From: Paracoccaceae bacterium
Lineage (GTDB): Bacteria; Pseudomonadota; Alphaproteobacteria; Rhodobacterales; Rhodobacteraceae
Assembly (NCBI GenBank): GCA_017510335.1
Contig: JAFWNM010000025.1
Location: 1-46,931 of the forward strand
DNA length: 46,931 nt
Direction: 5' to 3'
Shown one piece after another: positions 295 through 14,379 of this stretch; position 1 is the stretch's first letter, and each line of letters begins with the position of its first letter. The notes under the pieces are model-generated. The model was not told where the DNA came from, made no database searches, and saw nothing but the letters and a program-made list of their open reading frames with translations. The position numbers were made by a program, and so were the translations under genes.

Positions 295-343
295 TCCACA
301 TTTGGACCTAAGCGCCAGTAAAATAATAGGAAAATAAACGCAG

Positions 344-359
344 TGGCAGCCCGTAGGGG
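344..359. repeat. att site, left copy (16-bp tRNA-Glu 3' end)
   Basis: TGGCAGCCCGTAGGGG is identical to the last 16 bases of the tRNA-Glu gene at 20813-20828 and to 12362-12377, all in the same orientation. This copy and the middle one also share the two bases AG before the core. Here the core runs into a dyad, GCAGCCC-GTAGG-GGGCTGC, possibly a pair of inverted core sites for the integrase. It marks the outer left limit of the tandem array. Confidence 0.85.
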
Positions 360-396
360 GCTGCGGAAACAGTGAAAAATCAAACACTTGAAGGAC

Positions 397-453
397 GTGG
401 GACAGTGCCAATCTTTCATCAGACTTCAAGATTTTTCAGGATATTTGTCCCAC
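397..453. promoter_or_regulatory. Element 1 left arm sites (inverted GTGGGACA pair)
   Basis: GTGGGACA occurs at 397-404 and its reverse complement TGTCCCAC at 446-453, starting 37 bp inside the left att core. The same pair recurs beside the other end of element 1 (12281-12288 and 12309-12316). Tyrosine recombinases bind arm-type repeats flanking the attP core, and the placement fits. An operator role for the primase gene just downstream is the alternative. Confidence 0.55.
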
Positions 454-486
454 CATTTCAGCGGCCTCTTAACAGAGGAAACGCAA

Positions 487-2808
487 ATGGAAATCCATCA
501 CAGTCAATTCGAAGACCTTTGGGGGGGTAGTCCTACAACGACAAAACCCGGCGCGCTGGCGGGCGCAACCGGGTCAGATGTCAAAAAGGAAGTCACTCAA
601 CTTCAAGGCGCAATATACCACGATCCCGATGGATTGCTAGGGGGCGTTTCGCCGCTTGATGCACCTATCGCAGTGACACGCTTTGCCAATGTCAGCGCCA
701 ATCGTTTCAGCACAGAAGCCATGAGTCTGCGCGCGCTTGCTGGTGTCATTCGTCAGATGCGCGCAGGCAGCAAAGCAACCTTGCCGCTGCTGAAACTGGC
801 AACCTTCGGAGATTTGCGGACCGAAAAAGGCTCGCTTCGACATGACGGCAACCTTGTCGAGATACATGGGATTGAAGGCGACTATGACGCCGGGGCCGTG
901 TCCACTGCTGAAGCTGTCCAGATGCTCAAGAACGCTGACATCGCGGCGCTTGTTTACACCACGCCGAGTCACACGCCCGATGCGCCCCGCTGGCGTGTCC
1001 TAGTGCCGGTGTCCGGCGCAGTCCAACCTTCAGAACGGGACGCCCTGTGCGCGCGTGTGAATGGTGCGCTTGGGGGTATCCTTGCAACTGAGTCCTTCAC
1101 ACGAAGCCAGACCTTCTATTTCGGGGGGATTGGCTGCGAACCTGAAGTGTTTCTTGTGGAAGGCCGCGCGATCGACAGTGCAACGGATCTGCCCGCTATT
1201 GGAAAGCGCGGGGCAGTCTTTGCCGATGATTCAGACATGTTTGCAGACATCCTTGGGGGTAGGCCGGAACGAAAGGGACAGGGCAAATGCGGGCAACCTT
1301 GGGATGTGATCGTTTCGGCGTTGTTCGCAATCCCAAACGATGGCGCGCCCGGCTGGATGGACTTTCGCGACATTGCCATGGGGCTTCACGAAGAGTCGAA
1401 CGGGTCTCAAGAAGGGCTAGACACGTTCTGCAAATGGGCAAAGCAAAACCCCAGTTACAGCAAGCGCGAATGCCTGAAAATCTGGCGCAGCTTGAAGGTT
1501 GGTCAGCCCGGAAATGTAGGCGGCGGAACTATCCTGCTACGCGCAAAGGCGTTCGGCTGGGAAGACCCCGGCGCATACGATAACCTTGACGGCTTCGAAG
1601 ACCAGCCCGAGGAGGCCACTGACAAGCCGGTAAACCCCACGCGCCTGACCTTGCTGACTCCCGCTGAATGCGATGCCGCCCCCGCGCGATCATATCTGAT
1701 CAAGGGGCTTATCGCAGCGGGGGACGTGGGGTGCATTTTTGGCGCGCCCGGTGCCGGTAAGTCGCTGCTGGCCCCTGCCCTGGGCTATGCGGTTGCGCAA
1801 GGGCGGGAAGCGTTCGGAATGCGCTGTAAGGCTGGTGGCGTCTTCTATGTCGCTGCTGAAGACCCCCACGAGATGCGCGGGCGTGTGAAGGCATTACGCC
1901 TTGCCCATGATGATGCGCCCGCCTTCCAGCTTGTCGAAGGCGTGTCGAACCTGCTGAAAACGGAGTCGCCTGATCTGGCGGCGCTGGTCGCGGCAGTGAA
2001 GGAGCGCCTGCCTAAACTAATCGTCCTGGACACGCTGGCACTGGCCTTCCCCGGCCTAGAAGAAAACAGTGCCGAAGCTATGGGGCGTGTCGTGGCAGTC
2101 GCCCGCAAGCTGACGAAATGGGGCGCGGCAGTCATCCTTGTTCACCACGACACGAAGGCGGAAGGCAACACGCCGCGCGGGCATAGCCTGCTGAACGGTG
2201 CCCTTGATGTCGCCTTGCACGTGAAGCGTGACGAGTCGGGCATCATCCGGGGCAAGCTGACAAAGAACAGAAACGGCACCTGTGATCGTGACATTGCTTT
2301 CCGCATAGCTGTCGAAGATGGCGGAACAGACGAAGACGGGGATGCGATCACCTTACCGCGTTGCGATGAACTGACAGACGATTTTGCAGAGCCTAAGATG
2401 AAAGCAAGCGAAAGAGCGGTTGTGAGGTCAGTAGAAGACCTTATTAGCGACGCCCAGCTAGAAGCGGAGTTCTCGGGCGAAGCTGCGCCGGAATCTATCC
2501 CGGAAAAGGAACTGCGCGACTTCTGCGCGTCGGATAGCCCGGACAAACCCGGACATTTGGTCGTGTCTGGGGCGCCAAACCGCGACAGTCGCGTAAAGGC
2601 TTATCGACGTGCCTTAGATAGCCTAGTCGGACAAGGCATTTTGTCCGGGTTTACCCATCCTGATAGCGGCGAAAAGCATATCAGCCCGAGTAAAATCAGG
2701 GCCTTGGGCGTGGTGGATAATCAGCCCGGACATACCCGGACAAAGCGGAAATGTCCGACCAGTGCAGCGGAGGGGGCAGCCCGGACAGACACGGACAACC
2801 CCCTATAG
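487..2808 (+). CDS. Satellite primase-helicase (AEP primase, PriCT-2, RepA-like ATPase)
   Basis: A 773-residue replication protein. Residues about 20-240 look like an archaeo-eukaryotic primase fold, with the acidic pair in GDYDAG near residue 131 and a later RWRVLVPVSG strand. Residues about 270-350 resemble a PriCT-2 domain. Residues about 400-650 form a RecA/RepA-type ATPase with Walker A GAPGAGKS near 418 and Walker B LIVLDT near 512. The C-terminal 150 residues look like a winged, possibly DNA-binding tail. It should prime and unwind the element's own origin. ATG 487 is chosen over the upstream TTG at 388 because AGAGGAA precedes it and the longer version would run through the arm sites. 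The gene's 3' end carries CCCGGACA iteron-like repeats. Confidence 0.85.
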   Translation: MEIHHSQFEDLWGGSPTTTKPGALAGATGSDVKKEVTQLQGAIYHDPDGLLGGVSPLDAPIAVTRFANVSANRFSTEAMSLRALAGVIRQMRAGSKATLPLLKLATFGDLRTEKGSLRHDGNLVEIHGIEGDYDAGAVSTAEAVQMLKNADIAALVYTTPSHTPDAPRWRVLVPVSGAVQPSERDALCARVNGALGGILATESFTRSQTFYFGGIGCEPEVFLVEGRAIDSATDLPAIGKRGAVFADDSDMFADILGGRPERKGQGKCGQPWDVIVSALFAIPNDGAPGWMDFRDIAMGLHEESNGSQEGLDTFCKWAKQNPSYSKRECLKIWRSLKVGQPGNVGGGTILLRAKAFGWEDPGAYDNLDGFEDQPEEATDKPVNPTRLTLLTPAECDAAPARSYLIKGLIAAGDVGCIFGAPGAGKSLLAPALGYAVAQGREAFGMRCKAGGVFYVAAEDPHEMRGRVKALRLAHDDAPAFQLVEGVSNLLKTESPDLAALVAAVKERLPKLIVLDTLALAFPGLEENSAEAMGRVVAVARKLTKWGAAVILVHHDTKAEGNTPRGHSLLNGALDVALHVKRDESGIIRGKLTKNRNGTCDRDIAFRIAVEDGGTDEDGDAITLPRCDELTDDFAEPKMKASERAVVRSVEDLISDAQLEAEFSGEAAPESIPEKELRDFCASDSPDKPGHLVVSGAPNRDSRVKAYRRALDSLVGQGILSGFTHPDSGEKHISPSKIRALGVVDNQPGHTRTKRKCPTSAAEGAARTDTDNPL

Positions 2809-2827
2809 GGGTGTCCAGATGTCCGGC
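2538..2827. repeat. CCCGGACA iteron-like array, candidate origin of element 1
   Basis: CCCGGACA occurs in direct orientation at 2538, 2548, 2725, 2735 and 2780. Inverted or near copies are TGTCCGGG at 2642 and TGTCCGGC at 2820, with looser GGACA/TGTCC copies between. Two pairs have 10-bp spacing. The array overlaps the 3' end of the primase-helicase gene and ends around a CCCCTATAGGGG palindrome (2800-2811). P4-type satellites replicate from iterons recognised by their own primase-helicase, so an origin is a reasonable inference. Part of the repetition is in coding sequence and could reflect the protein. Confidence 0.45.
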
Positions 2828-3036
2828 CCCCACCAGCACCCAGACAGAAGGGAAGCAACGATGATCAGGCTTAAGGTTAGAAGCATGTCGGTTGTGTGGT
2901 CGCACTTAGTAGCCAGCCAGCCCTTGCCGGTTGTGTGGTCGCTTGGGTCCTTCCCTTGGGGGCACGGCTTGCGGGGGGCTCTGACCCCGAAGGATTACGC
3001 TGCACAAGTTTTTTCAGAAATGGGGGTCCTGTTGTG
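2809..3036. other. Non-coding gap before terS, candidate packaging (cos) region
   Basis: About 230 bp without a credible gene between the primase gene and terS. It contains a 15-bp direct repeat, CGGTTGTGTGGTCGC, at 2891-2905 and 2930-2944 (39-bp period). In phages with GpA-type terminases the cos site with its small-subunit binding repeats lies just upstream of the small terminase gene. This is therefore the natural place to look, but no cos cut site can be recognised by eye. An in-frame extension of terS upstream to 2896 exists and is rejected. Confidence 0.35.
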
Positions 3037-3576
3037 ATGTCCAATTTTGAAATCTTTGGCGATCTGCTGGGCGACGAAATAAGCCCCGCTGAAGCCCCTT
3101 ATAACCTTTCGGGGGCAATCCCGCCGGAATTGAACGAGTCGGGACTGGCGACCCTGTTGGGCGTCGGCGCAAGCCGCATAAGAACCTTGGCCCGCGACGG
3201 CGTTCTAGTTCGCGGCGGAAAAGGGCGCTTCGACACGCGTAAATCGCTGCAAGGCTATCTGGAAAACCTGAGAGTCCACGCTGCCCGCGCTGGACGACCC
3301 TCAGAAGGCGGGGATGCTCTGAAGAAGGCTAAGACGCGATTAGCCGAAGAACAGGCCGCGAAAGCTGAACTTCAAAACGCTGCCCTTCGGGCTGAACTTG
3401 TGGAGTCGTCGGTTGTGCAGCGGGAATGGCAAAACATCCTTCGTGATGTGCGCAGCACAGTCCTAGCCGTTCCGTCCCGTGTCGGCGCGAAGCTGCCACA
3501 TCTTACTGCGCATGACGTGGCCGAAATTGACCGCGAGATTAAATCTGCATTGGAGGCGCTGGCAAATGGGCGTTAA
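3037..3576 (+). CDS. Terminase small subunit (Nu1-like)
   Basis: A 179-residue protein with an N-terminal helix-turn-helix (about 35-75, containing ATLLGVGASRIRTLARDGVL) and a long charged helical region (about 95-135, ALKKAKTRLAEEQAAKAE) that could form a coiled coil for oligomerisation. This architecture, and its position directly before a GpA-type large terminase, point to the DNA-recognition subunit of the packaging motor. It would decide which DNA enters the head and so give the satellite its own packaging specificity. The start at 3037 follows a weak ribosome site. The gene overlaps terL by 11 bp, implying coupled translation. Confidence 0.75.
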   Translation: MSNFEIFGDLLGDEISPAEAPYNLSGAIPPELNESGLATLLGVGASRIRTLARDGVLVRGGKGRFDTRKSLQGYLENLRVHAARAGRPSEGGDALKKAKTRLAEEQAAKAELQNAALRAELVESSVVQREWQNILRDVRSTVLAVPSRVGAKLPHLTAHDVAEIDREIKSALEALANGR

Positions 3577-5323
3577 AGAAATTCGCCGTGCGGCAATGCT
3601 TGCTCTGCGCCCGCCTGCTGACATGGCAACCGCAGACTGGATCGAAGCAAACATCTTCCTACCGCAAACCGCTTCTGCGCTGCCCGGTCGAATGCAGCTT
3701 TGGGCATATCAGCGCGGAATCTGTGACGCTGTTGACGATCCTGATATTGAACGTATCAGCGTTTTGAAATCTGCCCGTATCGGCTGGACGGCTTTGCAGA
3801 CTGGCTTTCTTGCGTCCAGCGTGGCGAACAGCCCCGCGCCAATCCTATCGATCCAGCCCACAACCGACGACGCGCGCGATTATGCCGTTGATGTCGAACA
3901 GATTTTCGATGCGTCACCGGCTTTGCGTGGACTCCTCTCTGACGATGCGGACGAAACGGGGCGCAGCACAATGCTAAACCGACGATTCCCCGGCGGTAGT
4001 CTGAAGTTCCTAGCAGCAAAAAGCCCTCGAACCTTGAGGCGGCACACGGCAAAAATCCTGATCATGGACGAAATCGACGGCTATGACGTTGGGCAAGAAG
4101 GTGATCCGATTGAACTTGCAACCATGCGGACTCTCACCTTCAGAGACCGGAAAATCATTGCGGGATCGACTCCGGTTTTCGATTACGGGCCAGCAACCCG
4201 GCTTTATAGCCAATCCGACAAGCGGATCTTCGAAGTCTGCTGCCCGTCTTGTGGCGATTTTTCTGAAATCAAATGGAAGGATATTGATTGGAATGAAGAC
4301 GATCCGGACTCGGCGCGATGGTTATGCCCGAAAAATGGCTGCGTGATCGAAGAACGATTTAAGCCTGAGATGGTAGCAAATGGCCGTTGGCGGGCAACTG
4401 CCCCAGATGTGAAAGGTCATGCCGGTTTTGCGATCAATGCGCTTGTAAGCCCACATTTCAATGCCCGTTGGGGCAAGCTGGCAGCGGAATTTCTGGAAGC
4501 CAAGAAGACGCCAGAAACCCTGCAAACCTTCACAAACCTTGTTCTGGGCGAACCGTGGCGAACGGAAGGCGAGGATCTGAGCGAACACGAACTGTTCGGA
4601 CGGCGCGAGTCGTTTGGCCTAACAGCCATTCCTGAAGATGTGCTGTTCATAACCGTTGGTGTGGATTGCCAAGATGACCGCTTAGAAAGCGTCGTCATGG
4701 GGCACGGGCGCAGCGATCTGTTCATTCTGGATCATCGAGTCTTCTGGGGGCCGATTGACGGGGAAGCCGTCTGGTCTGAACTCGAGTCCATGTTGCGCGA
4801 GACGTGGCAGCATCCCAAAGGCGGGACACTTCGAGTCGATGCCTGCTGCATTGACAGCGGCGACGGCGGGCATTCTCAGATTGTCCACGGCTTCACCAAG
4901 CCGCGCTTTGGGCGACGTGTCGTTAGCATCAAGGGCGTTGCCGGGTTTAGCCGCGCGCCCCTTCAGCGATCAGCGACGAAAGGGCAGATGCTTTGGCTTG
5001 TGGGCGTCGATGCTGTAAAGTCACAGCTTTTCAACCGGCTTGCGCGGGGGGTAGGCGTCCGTTTTTCGGAAGACCTAGAACCGGTATTCTTCGAGCAATT
5101 GACTTCGGAACGCCGGGTTGTGCGCTACACACGTGGCACTCCTCAGGCCCGATTCGAGCGGATCAAAGGCAAGCGCGCGGAATCGCTGGACGCAACAATT
5201 TACGCATGGGCTGCGCGTTCACTGATAGGTCAGAATGCAGATAGGCGCGACGAAGAACTTGCCAGTCAGGCCGTGCCGAAAAAGCCGCAATCTGTTATTC
5301 GGTCGAAGTGGTTAGCGGGTTAA
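3566..5323 (+). CDS. Terminase large subunit, GpA family
   Basis: A 585-residue packaging ATPase-nuclease. Visible motifs are a variant Walker A (LKSARIGWT, about residue 67), Walker B with catalytic glutamate (ILIMDEID, about 170), a CxxC...C zinc-like stretch (CCPSCGDF, WLCPKNGC, about 225-255) and the nuclease strand GVDCQDDRLE (about 365). Length is close to lambda gpA (about 640). It should translocate DNA into the prohead and cut at the packaging site. The ATG lies inside the end of terS, and it converges with a reverse-strand gene whose stop overlaps its own. Because satellites often rely on the helper's large terminase, having its own is notable. Confidence 0.92.
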   Translation: MGVKEIRRAAMLALRPPADMATADWIEANIFLPQTASALPGRMQLWAYQRGICDAVDDPDIERISVLKSARIGWTALQTGFLASSVANSPAPILSIQPTTDDARDYAVDVEQIFDASPALRGLLSDDADETGRSTMLNRRFPGGSLKFLAAKSPRTLRRHTAKILIMDEIDGYDVGQEGDPIELATMRTLTFRDRKIIAGSTPVFDYGPATRLYSQSDKRIFEVCCPSCGDFSEIKWKDIDWNEDDPDSARWLCPKNGCVIEERFKPEMVANGRWRATAPDVKGHAGFAINALVSPHFNARWGKLAAEFLEAKKTPETLQTFTNLVLGEPWRTEGEDLSEHELFGRRESFGLTAIPEDVLFITVGVDCQDDRLESVVMGHGRSDLFILDHRVFWGPIDGEAVWSELESMLRETWQHPKGGTLRVDACCIDSGDGGHSQIVHGFTKPRFGRRVVSIKGVAGFSRAPLQRSATKGQMLWLVGVDAVKSQLFNRLARGVGVRFSEDLEPVFFEQLTSERRVVRYTRGTPQARFERIKGKRAESLDATIYAWAARSLIGQNADRRDEELASQAVPKKPQSVIRSKWLAG

Positions 5324-5559
5324 ACGCTTCTCTTTACACTCTGTGTTTCTTCATCCCATACTATCGGGGGATCTGTAGACCATGATGATTGTGGGTTGAG
5401 CCATGGATTTTGTGGCACACATCCACATACGTGCCAAATCCCCGCAATATTTATACGAACCGAAGTGCCGCGTATTTCGACCTCAACAACCCCATGATCT
5501 TCAATAGCAACCTTCCAGTTACTGCTAACAAGACTGGTCAACGGATAACACTCAAGCAA
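5320..5559 (-). CDS. Hypothetical 79-residue protein, cargo block
   Basis: A short reverse-strand ORF starting with TTG inside the end of the upstream gene (5538-5861). It stops at 5320, overlapping the terL stop from the opposite strand. The protein has a compact, strand-rich look (VAIEDHGVVEVEIRG, then IAGIWHVCGCV with two close cysteines). I recognise no family. The overlap with its neighbour suggests coupled translation and possibly a joint function. The DNA around it is visibly richer in A and T than the head genes. Existence is moderately supported: the TTG start is the weakest point. Confidence 0.45.
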   Translation of the reverse strand: MLECYPLTSLVSSNWKVAIEDHGVVEVEIRGTSVRINIAGIWHVCGCVPQNPWLNPQSSWSTDPPIVWDEETQSVKRSV

Positions 5560-5861
5560 AAATTATCTTTCGTTCCCGACGAAATGAGGCGGGCAAGTGT
5601 GTCATTACCTTTAGAAATTGCCATGTACTTGGCCTTTTCGAAGCTAATACCTTCTTGATTCGCAAATCTCTGAATGTATGCCCCGGCAATCTCTGGCGGG
5701 AATGCCGTTCCCTGTCCGCAGTTGCGGGAGGCGACCACTATTCGCCCTAGAACTTCAATGCTTAATACTTCGGGCTCTGCTTCTTGCGCAAACGATGGCG
5801 CGGCGGCAGTCAAAGTAGAAAAAAATATCGCGGCAACAGTTTTCATCTTAAATGATAGCAT
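5538..5861 (-). CDS. Hypothetical secreted protein, cargo block
   Basis: A 107-residue protein with a clear Sec signal peptide: a lysine near the start, a hydrophobic segment VAAIFFSTLTAAAPSFA and a cleavage-like AQEAEP. The mature part (about 80 residues) has two cysteines, NCGQGTAF and FCLSVIR, that could form a disulphide. AAGGAAGG lies about 11 bases before the ATG at 5861. A second ATG six codons in is possible but lacks a ribosome site. It is encoded against the direction of the head genes in an AT-richer block, which suggests separately acquired cargo acting in the periplasm, for example on the host surface. That function is a guess. Confidence 0.6.
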   Translation of the reverse strand: MLSFKMKTVAAIFFSTLTAAAPSFAQEAEPEVLSIEVLGRIVVASRNCGQGTAFPPEIAGAYIQRFANQEGISFEKAKYMAISKGNDTLARLISSGTKDNFCLSVIR

Positions 5862-5917
5862 TCTTGATGCCCTTCCTTACCTTTGATTGAGTCAAAATCT
5901 CACACCGTGCGCGAACC

Positions 5918-6178
5918 TCAAAGCGATTCTTCAGTTATCCAGCGGTCAATGCAGAACTGATCTCTCGGGCCAAGCTGTTCAAGTGTTAGTTTGCGCCCAA
6001 CCGTCTCTGCACAAGCCCACCAGAACCTTGCATCTTCGTCAACCTGCCAGCGCCAAAAGCGGTGCAAATCTCGCCAAGACCTCTGCCAGAATGCACGCCG
6101 TTCCATCGGAATCCATGACGGCACGGGCGGAAGTCGCCGCGTGTTGAACCTGCATTTTGGTTCGATGATCATCTGCAT
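5918..6178 (-). CDS. Hypothetical 86-residue tryptophan-rich protein, cargo block
   Basis: A reverse-strand ORF with an unusual density of tryptophan and arginine (FWQRSWRDLHRFWRWQVDED, then FWWACAETVG). I cannot assign a family. The start at 6178 is chosen because GAGG lies eight bases before it. A GTG at 6244 would extend it by 22 residues but would run across the hairpin at 6191-6240. It is the first gene of the three-gene reverse cargo block, 56 bp from the secreted-protein gene. Opposite-strand ORFs over this stretch look like shadows. Confidence 0.5.
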   Translation of the reverse strand: MQMIIEPKCRFNTRRLPPVPSWIPMERRAFWQRSWRDLHRFWRWQVDEDARFWWACAETVGRKLTLEQLGPRDQFCIDRWITEESL

Positions 6179-6190
6179 AGGCATGACCTC

Positions 6191-6240
6191 AAAAACAAAG
6201 CGCCCCCAACTAGCTGTCCAATCAGCCGGTCGAGGGCGCT
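6191..6240 (-). terminator. Possible rho-independent terminator or attenuator on minus strand
   Basis: On the minus strand AAGCGCCC (6240-6233) pairs with GGGCGCTT (6206-6199), with a weaker inner stem, and is followed by TGTTTTT (6197-6191). This has the form of an intrinsic terminator, yet it sits just before, not after, the reverse-strand gene at 6178. It would therefore end a short transcript starting near the dyads at 6351-6422, or act as an attenuator of the cargo genes. Confidence 0.4.
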
Positions 6241-6350
6241 TCACCGCCGAGGGCGCAAAGGAGGAAACCGCCCCCGGTGGATCTGGTGGCCGGGCCGACC
6301 GAAGCCGCCCCGGCCTTTGGCTCGAACTGTGGACTACTCAACCATACATC

Positions 6351-6422
6351 TTGCTTCCGCTTGACGCAAGTAAAAGGTTGCGTCAAGCTGACGCAATTAA
6401 AGCTTGCATCCAGCGGACGCAA
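6351..6422. promoter_or_regulatory. Three 19-bp dyad operators upstream of head operon
   Basis: Three copies of a 19-bp dyad lie at 6351-6369, 6378-6396 and 6404-6422: TTGCTTCCGCTTGACGCAA, TTGCGTCAAGCTGACGCAA and TTGCATCCAGCGGACGCAA. All have the form TTGC-n-TC-n5-GACGCAA, with periods of 27 and 26 bp, about 2.5 helical turns. They lie between the divergent cargo block and the gene at 6451. They look like sites for a dimeric regulator controlling the head operon; the product of 6451-7026 is one candidate. No good sigma-70 promoter is visible among them, so an activator is possible. Iterons of a replicator are a less likely reading. Confidence 0.6.
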
Positions 6423-6450
6423 GATGTAGCGTCGAACGGAGGCAACCCTG

Positions 6451-7026
6451 ATGCCGGAGTTTAACATGACTGAATATGCCGCGACCCTTCGCCAGATCAC
6501 TGACGCGATTGCAGCTTTTCGGGGCCTATCAGACGCGGATAAAGAGCGCCTGTATTCTCGGGCACGAACGATGCGCGACCGGGGCCTGATCAATACAGCT
6601 TCTCCGAAAGCTCAGGGCCGTGAAATTCGGTATAGTGGCCCGGACATTGCTGCTGCCGTTGTTGCAATCACAATAAGCCTTAACGGCGGGTCCACCGGGC
6701 AGATCGAAGCCATCAATATGCGACTTCGCAAATTTGGCGCAGACTACACCACGACTGACAGCATCCCCGCCTACGAAGAAAACTTCGAAGCGATCCTATC
6801 CGGGCCGCAGATTTTTATTCGTTTTGATATGGTCCTTTTGTCTGATGGGGAATCCTCATTCAGTCAAACAGACACGAAAATGGGGGTGTTTGAAGACCTT
6901 GGTCTGGCCGACAGTTTCGACTCGGTCGATAGCTTTGGGCACCGCCGCATAGTCACACAGTCAAACCTTTTCCCAGTCTCTTCGCTAGTTCGCCCCGTGA
7001 TTGCCACTCTATTCTCTAAAGGCTGA
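6451..7026 (+). CDS. Hypothetical protein with MerR-like N-terminal DNA-binding region
   Basis: A 191-residue protein directly downstream of the three dyads and six bp before the portal gene. GGAGG lies about nine bases before the ATG. Residues about 25-85 have the pattern of a winged helix of MerR type (YSRARTMRDRGLI, then GREIRYSGPDIAAAVVAI). The remainder (about 90-191) is unfamiliar and may sense or dimerise. A regulator binding the upstream dyads and timing head gene expression is my inference. A structural role in the head is the alternative, given its place in the head operon. No database family could be confirmed by eye. Confidence 0.6.
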   Translation: MPEFNMTEYAATLRQITDAIAAFRGLSDADKERLYSRARTMRDRGLINTASPKAQGREIRYSGPDIAAAVVAITISLNGGSTGQIEAINMRLRKFGADYTTTDSIPAYEENFEAILSGPQIFIRFDMVLLSDGESSFSQTDTKMGVFEDLGLADSFDSVDSFGHRRIVTQSNLFPVSSLVRPVIATLFSKG

Positions 7027-7031
7027 TCCCC

Positions 7032-8387
7032 ATGGGCATCCTCGATCTGTTCCGCCGTACAGTTGAAAAGCCGACAGGCGTTCGCGCCTATGACGCTGCC
7101 ACGGCAAGCAGTTCCCGGTTCAACGCAGGGCAGAATAGATTTGCGAGCTATGGGCCGGAAACCATTGCTGCGAACCCTTCGATCAGAAGCCGCGCCCGAT
7201 ACGCTGCTGAAAATAACGCGCTTGCGGTTTCCGCTGTTGCGGCATGGGTGGACGCGACAATCGGCGCGGGTATGGTCCCGACCAGTCAGCATCCCGATCC
7301 AGAGACGCGGAAGGCACTGGACGCTTACTTTGCAAAATGGGCGAAGCGGGCAGATGCCAGCGGGCGCGGCGATTTCTGGGCGATGCAGGCAGCAATCGTG
7401 AAAGGGCAGCGGATCGATGGGGAAGCCTTCGCAATGTGGCGGGGCGAAAAGTTGCTGCAACTGCCCCCGGAACAGATTGCCGATCTGACAACGGACAACA
7501 TCGCAGCCGGTATCGAACTGAATGACGATGGCGCAGCCATTGCGTTTCATGTTCACCCGACGCGCCCGGATGCCATTCAGGCTACCTATGCGCCGCCCGT
7601 GCGAGTCAGCGCAGCCGACATGATGCATGTCTTTGAACCTGCTGGCCCCGGTGCCGTTCGTGGCGTGAGTCCCCTTGCGCCGATCCTGCTGGCCTTGTCA
7701 GAACTGGACAGCGCCGAAGACGCGCTGCTGACACAGACGAAAATCGCTGCGCTGCTGAGTGTCATTCTGACGAATGAATCCGATCACGGTAGCGAAGACC
7801 CGCTAGCCGATGGTCAGAGTCTAGAACCGGGCGCGATCCTGCGCTTGCCCGCCAACTATAAAGTGACGGCAGTTACCCCCCAGCAATCGCAACAAGCTGG
7901 TGAGTTCCTGCGACACCTGACACACCGCATTGCGTCGGGCGTGGGCGTCCCGGTCTGGCTGGTCACAGGCGATGTGTCGCAGGCCAACTATTCAAGCCTT
8001 CGTGCTGCCCTTGTCGCTTTTCGGCAACGTGTCGAACGCTACCAGTTTCAAACGCTGGTCCCGCAATTCCTTGATCCTGTCTGGCGTCGGGTTGCGACCA
8101 TGGCCGCGTTGGAATTGGGGTTAGAGATCAACGACGAACTGTTTGATGTGGAGTTTATTCCGCCTGCGCAGCCTTGGGTTGATCCCGCCAAAGATGCCCG
8201 CGCAGTAATCGAACAGATGGACGCTGGCTTGATGAGCCGCCGCCAAGCCGTCGCAGCACTGGGCTACAGCGTCGAAAAGCTGGACGCCGAAATCGCAGCC
8301 GACCGCGCGCGCGAAGCCAAACTGGGCCTTACCTTCAGCGCCGCCAGTCAACAAAATGTTGAACAAAAGGTAAACAAAAATGAATAA
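7032..8387 (+). CDS. Phage portal protein, lambda gpB family
   Basis: A 451-residue portal subunit. It has the lambda-family start (GILDLFRR), the early helical stretch SIRSRARYAAENNALAVSAV, the central WRGEKLLQLPPEQIADL strand region and the late LVTGDVSQANYSSLRAAL segment where portals of this family carry the wing and crown helices. Lambda gpB is longer (533), so the C-terminus is short. The portal forms the twelve-fold ring at one head vertex that docks the terminase and later the tail connector. The next gene overlaps it by 8 bp. Together with the capsid gene it shows that this element can in principle build its own procapsid. Confidence 0.92.
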   Translation: MGILDLFRRTVEKPTGVRAYDAATASSSRFNAGQNRFASYGPETIAANPSIRSRARYAAENNALAVSAVAAWVDATIGAGMVPTSQHPDPETRKALDAYFAKWAKRADASGRGDFWAMQAAIVKGQRIDGEAFAMWRGEKLLQLPPEQIADLTTDNIAAGIELNDDGAAIAFHVHPTRPDAIQATYAPPVRVSAADMMHVFEPAGPGAVRGVSPLAPILLALSELDSAEDALLTQTKIAALLSVILTNESDHGSEDPLADGQSLEPGAILRLPANYKVTAVTPQQSQQAGEFLRHLTHRIASGVGVPVWLVTGDVSQANYSSLRAALVAFRQRVERYQFQTLVPQFLDPVWRRVATMAALELGLEINDELFDVEFIPPAQPWVDPAKDARAVIEQMDAGLMSRRQAVAALGYSVEKLDAEIAADRAREAKLGLTFSAASQQNVEQKVNKNE

Positions 8388-10173
8388 GCCTGTAAAATTG
8401 ACGGCCAATCCTGACCGCGCCGCGCGTATTGCAGAACTGCCCGCACCCGGTGTGGACAGCACCGCAGGCGAACGGTTCACGCGAAAAATGCCTTTGGCCG
8501 GTGCCTTCGATAAAGAGGCCCTGACCGTCACGGCAGTCGTCGCAACGGAAACGCCAGTGCAGCGCCGCGATGCGCGTGGCCCTTTCTCGGAAGTTCTCAG
8601 TGCCGCTGGGCTTGTGACGGAAGAGGGCGCGGACGTTCCATTGCTTGAAGACCACACCCAAGCCGCCCGCAAGATTGCCGGGCATAGCTTTATTGTTGAT
8701 GGCCCCTCAGTGCGCGCGACTCTGCGCCTGTCCCAAGCCGACGATTTGGAACCCTTACGCCAGAGGATTGCGGACGGCAGTTTGCGCCACGTTTCCGCTG
8801 GCTATCAAGTTCTCGCATGGCGAGAGACCCGAACCCCTGACGGCACAAGGATCAAGACTGCCACGAAATGGCGGATCTTGGAGGTCAGCCTTGTTCCGAT
8901 TCCTGCTGACCGAAATGCAATCATCCAAAGGAGCGCAGAAATGCCTTTTGACCTTGAAACCCGAACTGCGCTAATCGCGACGTTGCGCAGCGCCTGCAAT
9001 CTGCCCGAGAACTGGGGCGAAGACCTGACCGAAGAAGCCGTGACTGATGAAGAAGTCCGCACGGCGGCGCGCGAAGCCATGTTGACGCGCCAAGCCCCGC
9101 GCATTCGCGTTCGTCAATCGTATGACGACCCGGCGCAAATCCAGACTCGTGCTGCTGATGCGATTGCCTTTCGCATGACAGGCGGGGAACTGCCGGAAGC
9201 CAGCCGCGAATTTGTAAATATGTCGCTTCGCGATCTGGCCGCCGATGCCCTGCAACGCTCGGGCGTTTCGACCCGTGGTCTGTCCGCAGATGACATCTTT
9301 CAACGGGCGCATAGCACATCTGATTTCCCGTTGCTGGTCTCTAACGCAATGGGCAAAGTTGCTGCGCAGGCATACCAAGCCGCCGAAAGCCCTCTGAAGG
9401 CACTGGCACGGCAGCGGACGTTGCCTAACTTCAAGACTTCGACCGCCATTCGCCTTGGCGAGATGGGGCGTCTTGAAGAGATGACCGAACAGGGCGAGTT
9501 CAAACACACAAGCCGCGCTGAAGGCGGTGAAACCATGTCGCTGAAGACCTTTGGCCGCGCAATCAATGTGCCGCGCAAGCTGCTGATTGACGACGATTTG
9601 AATCTGCTGGGCGATATGACCAGCGCCATGGGCCAAGCCGCCGCACAGACCGAAGCCGACGAACTGGTAAAGCTGCTGACCGGCAACCCCGCCATGTCGG
9701 ATGGCAACCCTGTTTTCCACACCAGCCGGGGGAATATCGCCACTGGCGCTGGCTCTGCACTGTCTGAAACTGCCTTGTCGAATGCCCGCAAGCATATGCG
9801 GACAGTCAAGGGACTCGACGGCAAGACGATCATCGACGCAAAGCCGCGCTATCTGATCGTGTCGCCTGATCTGGAAACGGCTGCTGAAAAGCTGCTGGCT
9901 TCGATCTATGCCACGACAAGCGAAGACGTGGCAGCATTCGCGGGCAAGTTGATCCCCGTGGTCGAACCCCGCCTGACCGGCAACGCTTGGTATTTGATGG
10001 CAGAGTCGTCGCGCATGGCGTCGATTCAATATGGCTATCTTGCCGCTGCTCAGGGCGTCCAGATTCAGCGCCAAGAGACTTGGGACACGCTGGGCATGAA
10101 GTTCCGGGCATGGCTGGACTTCGGTTGCGGCTGGCTGGATTGGCGCGGGGCCTATCGTGCGGCTGGTGCATAA
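8380..10173 (+). CDS. Prohead protease-major capsid protein fusion
   Basis: A 597-residue polypeptide with two parts. Residues about 30-185 resemble a U35-type prohead protease, with a candidate catalytic histidine in PLLEDHTQ (about 92), serine in RHVSAGY (about 139) and the following strand EVSLVPIPADRNA. Residues about 190-597 are a major capsid protein of the HK97 fold, including ESPLKALARQRTLPNFK, INVPRKLLIDDDLN and the C-terminal FRAWLDFGCGWLDWRG. Fusions of this kind are known in other phages: the protease end and adjacent delta-like helices act as scaffold and are cut off during maturation. AAAGG precedes the ATG, which lies in the portal stop region. This single gene supplies shell, scaffold and protease. 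Confidence 0.92.
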   Translation: MNKPVKLTANPDRAARIAELPAPGVDSTAGERFTRKMPLAGAFDKEALTVTAVVATETPVQRRDARGPFSEVLSAAGLVTEEGADVPLLEDHTQAARKIAGHSFIVDGPSVRATLRLSQADDLEPLRQRIADGSLRHVSAGYQVLAWRETRTPDGTRIKTATKWRILEVSLVPIPADRNAIIQRSAEMPFDLETRTALIATLRSACNLPENWGEDLTEEAVTDEEVRTAAREAMLTRQAPRIRVRQSYDDPAQIQTRAADAIAFRMTGGELPEASREFVNMSLRDLAADALQRSGVSTRGLSADDIFQRAHSTSDFPLLVSNAMGKVAAQAYQAAESPLKALARQRTLPNFKTSTAIRLGEMGRLEEMTEQGEFKHTSRAEGGETMSLKTFGRAINVPRKLLIDDDLNLLGDMTSAMGQAAAQTEADELVKLLTGNPAMSDGNPVFHTSRGNIATGAGSALSETALSNARKHMRTVKGLDGKTIIDAKPRYLIVSPDLETAAEKLLASIYATTSEDVAAFAGKLIPVVEPRLTGNAWYLMAESSRMASIQYGYLAAAQGVQIQRQETWDTLGMKFRAWLDFGCGWLDWRGAYRAAGA

Positions 10174-10388
10174 TGGCGAGTATTTCCGCGCTGCGGGATT
10201 TCCGCGAACAGCTTCAGGATGCCCGGTTCTCGGGCGTCCAAAGCCTGACCGATCAGAACGGCGAACGTGTCGTGTATCGGTCGCAAGCCGAAATTGAACG
10301 GGCCATTGCTGCCCTCGATTCTGAGATCGCACAACTTCAACGGGGCCGGAATGCGTTGATCCGGCTGCAAACCACGAAAGGACTCTGA
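10173..10388 (+). CDS. gpW-like head-tail joining protein
   Basis: A 71-residue protein starting on the last base of the capsid stop codon (TAATG), so translation is coupled. It has the gpW arrangement of two helices around a short hairpin: an N-terminal helix ISALRDFREQLQDARFSG, a VVYRSQAEIE turn-strand segment and a second helix ending in basic RNALIRLQTTKG. In lambda gpW enters the filled head and makes the site where gpFII and the tail bind. Its presence suggests that the satellite head is made ready to accept a siphovirus-type tail from a helper. Assignment rests on size, order and pattern. Confidence 0.8.
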   Translation: MASISALRDFREQLQDARFSGVQSLTDQNGERVVYRSQAEIERAIAALDSEIAQLQRGRNALIRLQTTKGL

Positions 10389-10391
10389 CCA

Positions 10392-10721
10392 ATGGCACGA
10401 AACTACATTCAACCCGGTGACACCATCACCATTCCCGCCCCGGCTGCTGTAGCAGGGGGCTTTCCTGTTGTGGCAGGTGACATTGTAGGCATTGCCCAAG
10501 GTGACGCGGCAATCAACTCCCCTGTCGATGTGAAGTGCAGCGGCGTTTGGGAACTGCCCAAAATTGCCGCAAACAACTTCGCGCTGGGGGCTGCTGTCTA
10601 TTGGGACGCGGGCGACGAACTGGCGACCACCACAGCAACCGACAACACGAAACTGGGCGCTGCTGTCGAAGCCGCGCCCGCTGACACGGCAAGCGTCCGC
10701 GTTCGCCTTTCTGGCTTCTGA
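10392..10721 (+). CDS. DUF2190-like capsid cement/decoration protein
   Basis: A 109-residue, almost wholly beta-strand protein (ARNYIQPGDTITIPAPAAVA, GDIVGIAQGDAAI, FALGAAVYWDAGDEL, GAAVEAAPADTASVRVRL). This is the usual look of DUF2190 proteins, found beside capsid genes in many phages and thought to be head decoration (cement) or stabilising proteins. It begins three bases after the gpW-like stop. It would bind the outside of the shell after expansion. The length is typical for the family. Confidence 0.75.
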   Translation: MARNYIQPGDTITIPAPAAVAGGFPVVAGDIVGIAQGDAAINSPVDVKCSGVWELPKIAANNFALGAAVYWDAGDELATTTATDNTKLGAAVEAAPADTASVRVRLSGF

Positions 10722-10729
10722 AAGGAAAA

Positions 10730-10930
10730 ATGACCATGGCTAAACTTTACTCAAAAACCAAGATCATCCGGGGGGATGAAGTAATTCCCAAGCAGACCGT
10801 CTTCGACGCCACGCCTTCTGAGGCAAAGCAATTCGACGTTCTGAAGGCCGCACGTCCAGCAACCGCTGACGAAGTGAAAGCCCATGCTGAAGCAGAAGCC
10901 AAGGCAAACGGCAAAGCGTTCGCAGGCTGA
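10730..10930 (+). CDS. Small hypothetical protein in head operon
   Basis: A 66-residue protein with AAAGGAA just before its ATG; a second ATG two codons later is equally possible. It begins AKLYSKTKIIRGDEVIPKQT, then turns into an alanine- and lysine-rich helix that ends KANGKAFAG. Short proteins of this kind often follow DUF2190 genes in head operons, but I cannot name a function. It is the last gene of the head operon before the excisionase-like gene. Confidence 0.65.
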   Translation: MTMAKLYSKTKIIRGDEVIPKQTVFDATPSEAKQFDVLKAARPATADEVKAHAEAEAKANGKAFAG

Positions 10931-10934
10931 TCCG

Positions 10935-11186
10935 ATGACCGCTGCCCGCTCACACAACACGCCGATTCTGCCACTGCCGACGCAGCGGGCCTTGTCGCGT
11001 TTGCGGGCAGCGGAATATCTCGACATGAGCCCGAACACCTTTGATCGCATGGTGAAGGACGGGCTGATGCCTGCGCCTATTGCGATCTATGGCAGAAAAG
11101 TTTGGGACGTGAGGGCAATCGACGCGGCCTTTGACATCTTGTCAGGGGTAGGCGACTCGCCCCATGCTGCAAACCCATGGGGCTGA
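10935..11186 (+). CDS. AlpA/excisionase-like HTH protein
   Basis: An 83-residue DNA-binding protein: RLRAAEYLDMSPNTFDRMVK forms the helix-turn-helix, followed by a wing-like stretch GLMPAPIAIYGRKVWDVRAI. This is the pattern of HTH_17/AlpA and excisionase proteins. AlpA of P4-type elements activates integrase expression and excision. Position just before the integrase gene fits an excision or integrase-control role. The start at 10935 lies four bases after the previous stop. An extended start inside the previous gene has no support. Confidence 0.75.
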   Translation: MTAARSHNTPILPLPTQRALSRLRAAEYLDMSPNTFDRMVKDGLMPAPIAIYGRKVWDVRAIDAAFDILSGVGDSPHAANPWG

Positions 11187-11202
11187 TCCCATGGAGAACA
11201 GC

Positions 11203-12273
11203 ATGAAAGTCAAAATCAAATATGTGGTGGAGGATACTGACCGGCATGGAAACGTCCGCGTTTACCTGCGCAAAGACGGTCGAAAAGTCCGCTTGCGCGG
11301 ACCGTTGGGCTCGCCCGAATTCTGGCGCGAGTATCATGCCGCGCTGAAACCGCCGCCCAAAGTCAGGGGCGAAAAGAAGGCCATTCCCGGCACGATCCAG
11401 AAGGGGACGATGCGATGGCTGGTGGCCCAATACACCGCGTCGGGCATGTTCAAGCAGCTTGGGGCCAAAACGCAGAAGGACCGCCGCGCCACGCTGGAAC
11501 GCTTTTGCAGCAATGTTCCCATTGGCGGCACGACGCCGGACGGTGAAAAGCCGTTCGACCTATTGCAGGCGAAACATATCCGCCTGCGCCGCGATGCGCT
11601 GGTGGCAACACCAGAGGCCGCGAACACCATGCTTAAGGCTATCAAGCAGGTGTTTAAGTTCGCGGTGCAGTATGAGCATCTAGACCGGAACCCGGCTATA
11701 GACGTGGGGCCGCTGAAGTCGAAAGGTGACGGCTATCATAGCTGGACGCTGGACGAAATCGAGCGGTTCGAGAATGCGCACCCGGTCGGCACAACGGCAC
11801 GGCTGGCCTTGTCTTTGGCACTCTATACCGGCCAGCGACGTTCCGATCTTGTAAAGTTCGGAAAGCAACATGTCCGCGACGGGTGGCTGGTCTTCACGCA
11901 GTTCAAAGGGCGCGACAACAAACCAGTCCGGCTTGAACTTCCGATCATCCCGGAACTGCAACGCATCATCGACGCATCCCCGACGGGTGATCTGGCCTTT
12001 CTTGTGACGGCTTACGGCAAGCCGTTCACAGCAGCCGGGTTCGGCAACAGGATGCGGGGATGGTGTGACAAGGCTGGGCTGTCCGATTGCTCGACACACG
12101 GACTGAGGAAAGCGGCTGCTGCAAGGCTAGCTGAACTCGGTTGCACTGAGTTCGAGATTATGGCGATCACTGGTCACCAGACCAGTAAGGAGGTTACGCG
12201 CTATACCAAAGCCGCATCGCAACGGGTTCGCGCGGCATCCGCGCTGGCCAAAATGTCCGGGGGCAAACCCTGA
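11203..12273 (+). CDS. int: Tyrosine-recombinase integrase of element 1
   Basis: A 356-residue site-specific recombinase. The N-terminal 90 residues are strand-rich (an arm-binding type domain), then comes a SAM-like core-binding domain (about 100-185) and the catalytic domain. Visible catalytic residues are arginine in TGQRRSD (about 211), the HxxR of HGLRKAAA (about 299-302), histidine in GHQTS (about 325) and the nucleophile tyrosine in RYTKAASQ (about 334). The start at 11203 is chosen for GGAG seven bases upstream; ATG 11191 is in frame but less well placed. It lies 90 bp from the att core at 12362 and next to two GTGGGACA sites, so it should catalyse integration into and excision from the tRNA-Glu end. 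Confidence 0.92.
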   Translation: MKVKIKYVVEDTDRHGNVRVYLRKDGRKVRLRGPLGSPEFWREYHAALKPPPKVRGEKKAIPGTIQKGTMRWLVAQYTASGMFKQLGAKTQKDRRATLERFCSNVPIGGTTPDGEKPFDLLQAKHIRLRRDALVATPEAANTMLKAIKQVFKFAVQYEHLDRNPAIDVGPLKSKGDGYHSWTLDEIERFENAHPVGTTARLALSLALYTGQRRSDLVKFGKQHVRDGWLVFTQFKGRDNKPVRLELPIIPELQRIIDASPTGDLAFLVTAYGKPFTAAGFGNRMRGWCDKAGLSDCSTHGLRKAAAARLAELGCTEFEIMAITGHQTSKEVTRYTKAASQRVRAASALAKMSGGKP

Positions 12274-12280
12274 ACGAAAG

Positions 12281-12316
12281 TGTCCCACTTTCGAACCAGT
12301 TTGACGCAGTGGGACA
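12281..12316. promoter_or_regulatory. Element 1 right arm sites (inverted GTGGGACA pair)
   Basis: TGTCCCAC at 12281-12288 and GTGGGACA at 12309-12316 lie between the integrase stop and the att core, which begins 45 bp further on. They match the pair at the left end of element 1, and no such pair was noticed in element 2. This is the expected place for the second arm of attP. Confidence 0.55.
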
Positions 12317-12361
12317 AAATTGAAGGCTAGGTCGCTGATATTGTTGGAATAAATATCAAAG

Positions 12362-12377
12362 TGGCAGCCCGTAGGGG
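12362..12377. repeat. att site, junction of the two elements
   Basis: The second identical TGGCAGCCCGTAGGGG copy. To its left is the element 1 integrase end with its GTGGGACA arms; to its right the element 2 integrase end with its own arm repeats. It is the hybrid junction expected when one element has integrated next to another that uses the same tRNA target. Confidence 0.85.
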
Positions 12378-12459
12378 ACCAAACCGCTTGTTTCATGTAA
12401 TGCCATGCAAGCCCGAAATCCCTTATTTTTAACAATAGTTTGCGATTTCACTTGTTCAC

Positions 12460-12511
12460 CGCCTTTCATGCCCTTACGTTGCAGAACATGACTAAGGGCA
12501 GAATGAAGGGC
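12460..12511. promoter_or_regulatory. Element 2 left arm motif (bipartite)
   Basis: CGCCTTTCATG begins at 12460 and TAAGGGCAGA at 12493, 33 bp apart. The same two words with the same 33-bp spacing and orientation recur at the other end of element 2 (20703 and 20736). Here the two halves also form a loose large dyad, since TGCCCTTA lies at 12469-12476. It lies 83 bp inside the att core and just before the integrase start at 12520. It probably is an integrase arm site, possibly also an integrase-gene operator. Confidence 0.55.
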
Positions 12512-12519
12512 GGGCCAAT

Positions 12520-13878
12520 ATGCCACCAAGAGCCAAGGAACTGACACCGGCGCAGATCAAGAACCTGAAACACCCCGGCGGGGAAAAGCCCGTCAAGGTT
12601 GCCGTGGGGGGCGTGTCTGGTCTGCATATCCAGATATGGCCTAGCGGGGCGAAATCGTGGGTATTGCGCACCCGTTACGGGGAATGGGCCGAAACTCGCC
12701 TTTCCGATGGCACTATTCAGCGCGGGCGCAAGAAACGCGAAATCGGGCTGGGGGCTTATCCCGACATCTTGCCCGGTGCAGCGCGTGACAAGGCCAGAGA
12801 GGCCAAGGCCAAGCTGGAAGCGGGGATTGACCCTATCGCAGAGAGAAAGGCCACACAGGCGGCGCTAATCGCGGCGGCGCGCCGGGGGATGACCTTTGCC
12901 GAGGCTTTCGACAAATACGCGGCGCAGAAGGTTAAGGAATTCAGCTCAGAACGATACAAGACGCAATGGCGCAGGAGCGTTGAAACCTACGCCTTGCCCG
13001 AAATCGGCAAGTTGGCCGTGCAGGACGTGACATTGCAGGACGTGCAGCGCGTGCTAGTGCCGATCTGGGAAAGCCACACGGAAACCGCGTCAAAGCTACG
13101 CCAGAAGATCGAGGGCGTTCTGTCATGGGCCACCGTGTCGGGCTATCGCAAAGGCGACAATCCGGCGCGCTGGTCTGGCAATCTGGAACTGGTCATGCCG
13201 AAAGCGTCCAAGGTGGCGAATGCACAGAATTACCCGGCGTTGCAGCTTGGGGACGTGTCGCGCTGGTGGCAGGCATTGCAAGCCCGCGATGGCATGGGGG
13301 CGCAGGCGTTGGCGTTTCAGGCGATGACCGCGACCCGATCCGGCGCAATCCGTTTTGCGACTTGGGGCGAAATTGACTTGAAAGCGAAGGTCTGGACGAT
13401 CCAGCCGGGGCGGCAATCGTCAAAGATACCGGCCAACGAACCTGCAAAACGCATTCCCCTGACCGAACCCATGGTGGCGCTGCTGGAAGCCCTGCCAAGG
13501 TTGGACGGTTCCGACCTTGTTTTCTGGGCACCGCGTGGCGGGGCGCTATCGGATGCGACTATGGGCAAGGTTATGCGCACGATCCATGAGGCCGATCAGA
13601 AAGCGGGCGGCAAGGGCTATGTGGACGCAAAGACGGGGGAACAGGCGGTTCCGCACGGGATGCGCAGTGCGTTTAGAACTTGGGTTGCAGAGCGCACCAA
13701 TTTTGACGGAGACTTGGCCGAGGTTGCTTTGTTTCACAAGGTGGGCAGCAAGGTTGCGCAGGCATACAACCGCGCCGAACAAGTGGAAAAGCGGCGTCAC
13801 ATGATGGCGGCTTGGGGCGAATTCTTGGCAGGTCGCAAACCGTCGAAAGTGGTGCAGCTACAGGGGGCGCGGGGATGA
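12520..13878 (+). CDS. int: Tyrosine-recombinase integrase of element 2, P4 type
   Basis: A 452-residue integrase of the P4 branch. The N-terminus (1-110) carries the DUF4102-type arm-binding domain (LTPAQIKNLK, GLHIQIWPSGAKSW, REIGLGAYPDI). A core-binding domain follows (about 125-215, TFAEAFDKYAAQKVKEF), then the catalytic domain with arginine in TATRSGAIR (about 271), HxxR in HGMRSAFR (about 379-382), histidine in LFHKVG (about 405) and tyrosine in AQAYNRA (about 415). P4-type integrases typically target tRNA 3' ends, which fits the tRNA-Glu copies. It is only distantly like the element 1 integrase, so two unrelated elements seem to share one target. ATGA overlap couples it to the next gene. 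Confidence 0.93.
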   Translation: MPPRAKELTPAQIKNLKHPGGEKPVKVAVGGVSGLHIQIWPSGAKSWVLRTRYGEWAETRLSDGTIQRGRKKREIGLGAYPDILPGAARDKAREAKAKLEAGIDPIAERKATQAALIAAARRGMTFAEAFDKYAAQKVKEFSSERYKTQWRRSVETYALPEIGKLAVQDVTLQDVQRVLVPIWESHTETASKLRQKIEGVLSWATVSGYRKGDNPARWSGNLELVMPKASKVANAQNYPALQLGDVSRWWQALQARDGMGAQALAFQAMTATRSGAIRFATWGEIDLKAKVWTIQPGRQSSKIPANEPAKRIPLTEPMVALLEALPRLDGSDLVFWAPRGGALSDATMGKVMRTIHEADQKAGGKGYVDAKTGEQAVPHGMRSAFRTWVAERTNFDGDLAEVALFHKVGSKVAQAYNRAEQVEKRRHMMAAWGEFLAGRKPSKVVQLQGARG

Positions 13879-14285: not shown

Positions 14286-14300
14286 ATGGTATTATTTGGC
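14277..14300 (+). terminator. Hairpin at the end of the integrase operon
   Basis: GCCAAATAA (14277-14285) and TTATTTGGC (14292-14300) form a perfect 9-bp stem with a 6-base loop, containing the stop codon of the preceding gene. The following sequence has only a broken T run, so it may be a weak terminator or a stabilising 3' hairpin. Confidence 0.4.
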
Positions 14301-14343
14301 GGTTGCTTCCTTTTGCAAAACGGAAATTCTTGCTCTTAATGGG

Positions 14344-14379
14344 TTGTTATCAGGTTATTCCAAGAAAGGCCGATAACAA
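14344..14379 (+). promoter_or_regulatory. 8-bp inverted repeat around the ribosome site of the AlpA-like gene
   Basis: TTGTTATC (14344-14351) and GATAACAA (14372-14379) are perfect inverted copies enclosing 20 bases that include the AAAGG ribosome site; the second copy reaches the first base of the ATG. It could be an operator for a dimeric repressor or an mRNA hairpin controlling translation of the AlpA-like gene. Confidence 0.45.

Follow-up and report, generated by a model that had tools for sequence, protein, structure and literature searches.

A probable capsid-forming phage satellite and its tailless relatives in Rhodobacterales

Element 1 and its attachment site

The window analyzed here, positions 1–46,931 of contig JAFWNM010000025.1 from a Paracoccaceae bacterium (GCA_017510335.1; Rhodobacterales), contains an insertion of ~12 kb, element 1 (342–12377), which is flanked by 18-bp direct repeats and very probably represents an integrated capsid-forming phage satellite. 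An earlier note had proposed as much for positions 344..12377. The comparisons below support this proposal, as far as sequence comparison can, and the repeats, at 342–359 and 12360–12377, bear out its extent. The left repeat is a copy of the 3′ end of tRNA-Glu, identical to the right repeat. A third copy, at 20811–20828, keeps 16 of the 18 bases and forms the 3′ end of the tRNA-Glu (TTC) gene on the minus strand (20813–20887), the target gene, which holds the attachment core. Because a second element (element 2, 12378–20828) sits between element 1 and this gene, the two are arranged in tandem at a single attachment site. The window begins 341 bp to the left of element 1, at the contig end; since both repeats are present, element 1 is not cut by the contig edge.

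The annotated genes of element 1 all lie on the plus strand. The first encodes a primase-helicase with PriCT-2 and AAA_25 domains (487–2808, in an open frame from 388, ATG at 487; E-values of 6.1e-34 for PF13481, 6.8e-11 for PF08707 and 9.4e-43 for phrog_906). A Nu1-like small terminase, TerS, follows (3037–3576, open frame from 2896, ATG at 3037; phrog_57 1e-28, and PF07471 8.1e-5, below the cut-off), and then a large terminase, TerL, of the GpA type (3566–5323, open frame from 3479, ATG at 3566; PF05876 7.8e-73, PF20454 2.1e-76). The next 1.7 kb, between TerL and the portal gene, contain small minus-strand open reading frames (ORFs) and one plus-strand regulator. Beyond this lie a portal protein of the lambda family (7032–8387; PF05136 9.9e-70), an S78 prohead protease fused through a short junction to the major capsid protein, MCP (8380–10173; PF25209 2.5e-46, PF10124 8e-10, PF04586 1.3e-5, phrog_4523 4.3e-146), a gpW-like head-tail adaptor, Ad1 (10173–10388; phrog_2545 1.8e-8), and a head decoration or cement protein (10392–10721; PF09956 1.9e-27). 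Hence the head set named in the earlier note (TerS, GpA-type TerL, portal, protease-capsid fusion, gpW-like adaptor and cement) is borne out by Pfam and PHROG profiles. A small conserved protein (10730–10930) has BLASTP homologues in relatives L002, L004, L006, L008 and L010 and no Pfam match. The element ends with an AlpA-like excisionase or regulator (10884–11186) and a tyrosine integrase (11164–12273; PF00589 3.2e-16). The integrase and the primase, both predicted earlier, are confirmed by profile; for the AlpA-like protein, Pfam support is weak (PF12728 0.0032, below the cut-off) and PHROG support better (phrog_66 3.2e-5).

Profile scans detect no tail or lysis family in element 1, though a very small holin could escape them. 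The claim that the element lacks tail, lysis and repressor genes therefore stands in its first two parts. The third is doubtful, because a MerR-like DNA-binding function is predicted for the 191-aa protein encoded at 6451–7026.

A family of tailless relatives

Using the capsid fusion as query, we scanned genome contigs and viral contigs once each. The genome scan returned six loci, in Gemmobacter, Celeribacter, Martelella, Rhodovulum, a Paracoccus metagenome-assembled genome and Mangrovicoccus, with fusions 76–56% identical to that of the window; the viral scan returned five, and L009, L010 and L011, at the least, duplicate genome loci. The order TerS-TerL-portal-capsid-adaptor-cement-AlpA-integrase is common to all six named-genome relatives, and four of them have a primase of the element 1 type ahead of TerS. 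The primase of L004 resembles that of element 2, and L003 has a Prim-Pol/VapE-type protein. Within the same bacterial family, 112 of 394 genomes match the capsid query, tailed prophages among them. Forty regions were taken from these genomes, comprising 37 candidates, several of which end at contig ends, and three phage controls. The window, the six named-genome loci and the 37 same-family loci make up the set of 44 loci used below.

To look for tails, we compiled 43 tail, lysis and neighbouring proteins from seven phages and applied a cut-off of 1e-4. None of these references matches 43 of the 44 loci, the sole exception being L075; all five controls are matched, trivially so in the two from which references were drawn. 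Close homologues that run on into tail genes, which the earlier note had named as the sign of a truncated prophage, are thus absent from this set apart from L075. A broader profile of the capsid, built from 29 rows (A1), matched at least 593 viral-contig stretches, of which the best 80 were taken and 79 were new. Tail matches are absent from 78 of these 79, and L131 has one weak match (3e-5), antisense within the capsid gene; many of the 79 contigs are short or partial, and some may duplicate genome loci. In four of them (L106, L117, L146, L158) the gene order is rotated, with portal-capsid-cement ahead of the terminase; these may be other architectures or excised forms.

The ends of the relatives are similarly regular. 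A direct repeat of at least 15 bp flanks 15 of the 26 loci that have an integrase after the capsid gene, and in 13 of these 15 ARAGORN finds a tRNA gene (Ser, Tyr, Arg, Phe, Met, Glu or Cys) at the repeat end. Including the window, 16 elements are bounded by repeats, with sizes of 10.2–12.6 kb. L056 and L061 adjoin tRNA-Glu and have integrases 62–63% identical to that of element 1, and L056 keeps 17 of the 18 attachment bases. The 16 repeat-bounded elements contain 88 non-core ORFs, in which nine Pfam families were found (VapE, Prim-Pol, PriCT-2, DUF5906, MerR, gpW, HTH_36, RAMA and DUF2971), none of them a tail or lysis family. Nor is any tail-named family present among the 25 listed of the 39 PHROG families in these ORFs, one of which is a 'virion structural protein'.

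In a capsid tree, 51 capsids from the loci and viral contigs and 14 capsids from tailed phages and prophage controls are set apart by one branch (SH-aLRT 98). A second tree also takes in nine loci that belong to the same class and to other families within it. L198, L199 and L200, which have no tail match, group with the tailless elements; L202, L203, L205 and L206, which have tails, fall with the phages, as does L204, whose status is unsure (one weak match to a distal-tail family). That the capsids of tailless elements branch apart from those of tailed phages lends support to the earlier suggestion of a separate lineage.

The earlier note had also proposed inactivated head genes in relatives as evidence against a satellite. 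These genes are largely intact: full-length copies of MCP occur in 43 of 44 loci (L055 has it split), of the portal in 42 of 44, and of TerL in 37 of the 40 loci with a TerL match, one of the three short copies being cut by a contig end. A TerL match is absent in four loci (L050, L058, L064, L075), and TerS is short in L052 alone among 39. In three close pairs, the dN/dS values of TerL, portal and MCP lie at 0.04–0.20 and indicate purifying selection. Identity to the window differs independently from gene to gene; in L006, for example, it is 78% for the portal, 56% for MCP and 47% for TerL. Such variation suggests that modules are exchanged among these elements.

It is also conceivable that element 1 is a defective prophage, that is, a lambda- or Mu-like phage whose tail and lysis genes were deleted. 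The head genes are certainly phage-like, L075 shows that head/tail deletion junctions occur, and L201, one of the loci from other families, retains a tape-measure-like gene. However, we find the same layout and similar size at different tRNA genes in many genera, and the same deletion would be needed in dozens of hosts. The largely intact head genes under purifying selection, the single capsid branch, the near absence of relatives continuing into tail or lysis genes, and the position of the gpW-type adaptor, after the capsid gene rather than before the portal as in phage RcKemmy, all argue against decay. We consider a defective prophage highly improbable.

The family is widespread, its layout recurring across many Alphaproteobacteria; if element 1 is a satellite, such elements would be common in Rhodobacterales and also occur in other members of the class. 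The capsid profile (at or below 1e-60) matches 15 of 385 genomes at the class level and 36 of 398 at the phylum level; judging by the part matched, many of these matches look like tailed phages, and nine loci were inspected. Among sequenced phages, all capsid matches (114 records) and TerL matches (752 records) are below 60% identity; among the matches listed, capsid identity is at most 34% (40 of 114 listed) and TerL identity at most 36% (10 of 752 listed). Element 1 has no near DNA match in plasmids. Portal relatives (32–41% identical, 1e-40) are seen in eight plasmid records from Azospirillum, Paracoccus and Pseudorhodobacter, and may represent such elements on plasmids.

Regulator, replication repeats, capsid junction and cargo slot

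The protein encoded at 6451–7026, directly upstream of the portal gene, is probably a MerR-like DNA-binding regulator, judging from its position, its predicted fold and its counterpart in L059. By position alone, 30 of 33 elements have an ORF of 152–305 aa whose end lies no more than 160 bp from the start of the portal gene. These proteins evolve fast, with 18 aligned copies 9–37% identical to the window's. An AlphaFold2 model of the window protein (pLDDT 85.9) has as its best match in the PDB the MerR-type protein CvkR (7xn2; E 1.1e-3, prob 1.00, TMq 0.43), no match there reaching 0.001, and among viral models it best resembles a MerR-type protein (E 0.031). The L059 copy matches PF13411 at 9.2e-6, above the cut-off. 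Pfam gives no match for the copies of the window, L007, L047 and L077, and PHROGs none for that of the window. Both this regulator and the cargo slot described below were missed in the earlier note.

Iteron-like repeats, six copies of CCCGGACA on both strands, occupy the last part of the primase gene (2535–2798) and form a candidate replication origin. Six copies were reached in none of 200 dinucleotide shuffles. Related CCGGACA repeats occur in L002, L007 and L056, and also in L061, there not beyond chance; L003 and L060, which have another replication gene, have other repeats as well. Ahead of TerS, the most frequent 8-mer is so common in 15 of 25 elements that no more than 1 of 200 shuffles equals its count.

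The closest comparison among complete phages is with RcKemmy (Rhodobacter) and with Pben1 and Psul1 (Paracoccus), which share with element 1 the TerS, TerL, gpW, portal, protease-capsid fusion and cement-type genes. These are full tailed phages of 38–41 kb, with capsids ~31–32% identical to that of element 1, a gpW gene before the portal rather than after the capsid gene, and a longer protease-capsid junction. Measured across W176-W200 in 22 aligned fusions, the junction comprises 24–50 residues in nine tailless rows, 54 in L201, 55 in L204, and 66–118 in eleven tailed-phage rows. A coarser measure nearly touches between the groups (171 versus 172 residues); the finer one separates them. One caveat is that the alignment of phages L044, L171 and L173 is unsure, since by eye they may have another type of protease. 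The genome ratio of 12 kb to 41.3 kb (RcKemmy), or 0.29, lies near the 0.28 expected by volume for T=3 versus T=7 heads, with T=7 assumed for RcKemmy-type phages. We hypothesize that junction length sets head size, although the difference may rest on a single evolutionary change.

Between TerL and the regulator lies a variable slot (5324–6450 in the window). Taken from TerL to the portal gene, it spans 0.6–2.8 kb in most loci, rising to as much as 3.8 kb in a sister lineage whose TerL is RcKemmy-like. The window's slot contains two minus-strand ORFs, one (5538–5861) signal-peptide-like by eye and the other (5918–6244) with a homologue in L004. Neither has a Pfam match or a PADLOC match at 0.01, and on this basis we rejected defence genes in the window's own slot. 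PADLOC gives one weak match (0.0085) to the element 1 primase and, over the 88 non-core ORFs, one match each to PDC-M36A (2.5e-11), PDC-S14 (3.9e-8), a control protein (1.4e-6) and IetA (3.8e-4). From the sister lineage we sampled ten slot proteins of five loci, picked for large size. Methyltransferases are present in the slots of four (L066 3800–7463, L067 3894–7337, L070 12113–14699, L072 11762–13384), and HNH or BsuBI/PstI-type restriction enzymes in those of L066, L067 and L070. The L074 slot proteins are neither methyltransferases nor restriction enzymes. The slot would thus carry exchangeable cargo, including restriction-modification genes in the sister elements.

Known systems, proposed life cycle and neighbouring DNA

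Capsid-forming phage-inducible chromosomal islands (cfPICIs) have a gene set that includes integrase, AlpA or another regulator such as an Stl-type one, primase, terminase and a full head without tails (PMC10690885; PMC13230959). Such islands are induced by a helper phage, fill heads of their own and use the helper's tails. Element 1 follows the same economy: it is integrated, encodes an integrase, a weakly matched AlpA-like protein and another regulator, a primase, TerS, TerL, portal, protease, MCP and adaptor, and has no tail genes by profile. One might therefore place it as an ordinary member of the cfPICI family. It differs in its parts, however. The 900 published cf-PICI capsids form a PF05065 tree (PMC13230959), and cfPICI capsids fall into three radiations (PMC11389934); element 1 has no PF05065 match at E<=0.1, its capsid being of the PF25209 type and fused to the protease. 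Its TerL is of the GpA type, and a MerR-like regulator precedes the portal. The HNH endonuclease that belongs to the cfPICI packaging module was found neither in element 1 nor among the 88 non-core ORFs (1e-3). It should be kept in mind that the 900-capsid set was gathered by PF05065, so that published elements with other capsids could be left out. Ordinary cfPICI membership is, in our view, quite unlikely, and the best reading is a separate capsid-forming lineage that works like a cfPICI and is not one by its parts.

Other systems share some aspects with element 1. P4-like satellites are of similar size, have their own primase-helicase with a repeat-type origin and integrate at tRNA genes; P4 is not known to have a capsid of its own, and takes and resizes that of its helper. 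The MCP, portal and terminase of element 1 rule out a P4-like satellite. Gene transfer agents (GTAs) have tail genes and are not known to have integrase or attachment sites. The integrase and attachment repeats of element 1, together with the missing tail match, rule out a GTA. MulchRoom and MiniFlayer of Streptomyces, like element 1, have their own capsid and packaging genes and presumably use a helper tail; they differ in having virulent helpers, direct terminal repeats and no obvious replicase, and are reported to be without significant homology to cfPICIs (PMC10690885). In the Vibrio satellite-plasmids cf-PISP and PISP (15.8 and 11.1 kb), tail genes are absent as in element 1, and PISP, which has been suggested to disrupt helper head assembly, likewise encodes a capsid protein (of the protein E type), a protease, a small terminase and a MerR-like regulator; these are plasmids, with PF05065 or PF03864 capsids (PMC13230959). 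Wolbachia plasmids such as pWALBA1 are alphaproteobacterial and carry TerL, portal and possible coat genes with tail genes undetected; they too are plasmids, and their authors leave packaging open (PMC9560607). The Charybdis elements, at 4.6 kb and without capsid, terminase or portal, are unrelated (PMC12324425). Our literature search found no capsid-forming satellite in Rhodobacterales; the main cfPICI and SatelliteFinder papers lay outside that search, and some elements may be listed there.

Our confidence that element 1 and its relatives are real, conserved, head-making and tailless mobile elements is high with regard to anatomy and family, and moderate with regard to the borrowing of tails. 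Most likely, the family builds its own small heads and takes tails from helper phages. Upon infection by a helper, the MerR-like regulator (6451–7026), acting as a repressor or an activator, would be the switch that answers the helper, and together with the AlpA-like protein would trigger late-gene expression and excision. The element's own primase would read the iterons as a replication origin and replicate it. TerS and TerL would package the 12-kb genome into heads made of the element's own protease-capsid fusion, which are probably smaller than normal, and the portal and gpW-like adaptor would accept the tail of a helper siphophage. A fuller proposal has the family as an old lineage, independent of cfPICIs, that derives from a head module of lambda/GpA type, keeps its heads small through a shortened protease-capsid junction (presumably a built-in scaffold), and spreads restriction-modification cargo via siphophage tails. 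We hold this combined proposal to be evenly balanced between true and false.

Several observations weigh against the satellite reading. L201 (G717:C6), which tells most clearly against a clade that is tailless throughout, encodes at 9086–11659 an 857-aa tape-measure-like protein after the cement gene (phrog_9483 2.4e-18, no Pfam match), followed by three ORFs with no PHROG or Pfam family, and its capsid sits inside the tailless group (SH-aLRT 99 for the group); L201 may be a satellite that determines how long its borrowed tail is. L075 is decayed, with a portal fragment fused to the start of a tape measure beside tail fragments. Decay is also seen in L055 (MCP), in L052 and L053 (short TerL), and in L057, which was counted as full length and has its portal match in two pieces ~2.6 kb apart. 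The tail-free PHROG result covers 25 of 39 families. No clear repeat array is seen in 10 of 25 elements (3 to 200 of 200 shuffles as high). Terminal repeats, sought as a sign of the excised form, occur in 0 of the 79 viral contigs. No empty site is shown for element 1: its 341-bp left flank is unmatched in 16 congener regions, and integrase genes lie near the same tRNA-Glu in congeners. A search of the host's own genome for a resident helper, limited to TMP_3 and GTA_TIM, gave no match to the tape-measure family TMP_3; GTA_TIM and PF05065 capsid matches lie ~7 kb apart on the minus strand (C36 1747–10017), so that this locus looks like a GTA, probably a GTA cluster. The helper, the small particles and the mobilization of element 1 are inferred.

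This host locus raises the alternative that the family makes a tailless virion, or heads that take the tails of a resident GTA; the GTA-like locus and the lack of a TMP_3 match would be in line with this idea. No lysis gene was found in element 1, however, and its gpW adaptor and its portal, of the lambda family, suggest a neck of the lambda type. Known GTA portals belong to a family other than lambda portals. Additionally, the elements co-occur with tailed prophages that have related capsids: among the 394 genomes, elements are present in 47, such prophages in 44, and both in 14, versus 5.2 expected (Fisher p 1.5e-4), with classes assigned by match shape and confounded by genome and prophage load. 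This fits a helper of that kind, and also prophage-rich genomes. We give little credence to a tailless virion or to GTA tails.

If element 1 is a satellite, the strategy of making one's own head and borrowing a tail would have evolved in another bacterial class and on the basis of a different head module. The much shorter junction of the tailless fusions would then offer a testable case for the control of head size by a satellite. The finding would also give a name to a large family that lies among viral contigs and supposedly incomplete prophages. Gene exchange in Rhodobacterales is usually credited to GTAs; the cargo slot would be another means of moving restriction-modification genes between these bacteria.

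Finally, we note some features of the neighbouring DNA. Element 2 (8.4 kb) encodes an integrase, an HTH_17 protein (AlpA-like, below the cut-off), a D5-type primase and a weakly matched terminase-like protein (18251–19636; Terminase_6N 0.0035, below the cut-off). No capsid family was found among its seven scanned ORFs, and it is possibly another type of satellite. Integrase genes lie at or near the same tRNA-Glu in congeners L180, L183, L186, L189, L192 and L195, which marks the site as an integration hot spot. Further along the window, the ORF at 45497–46675 is, judging by eye, presumably an insertion sequence transposase.

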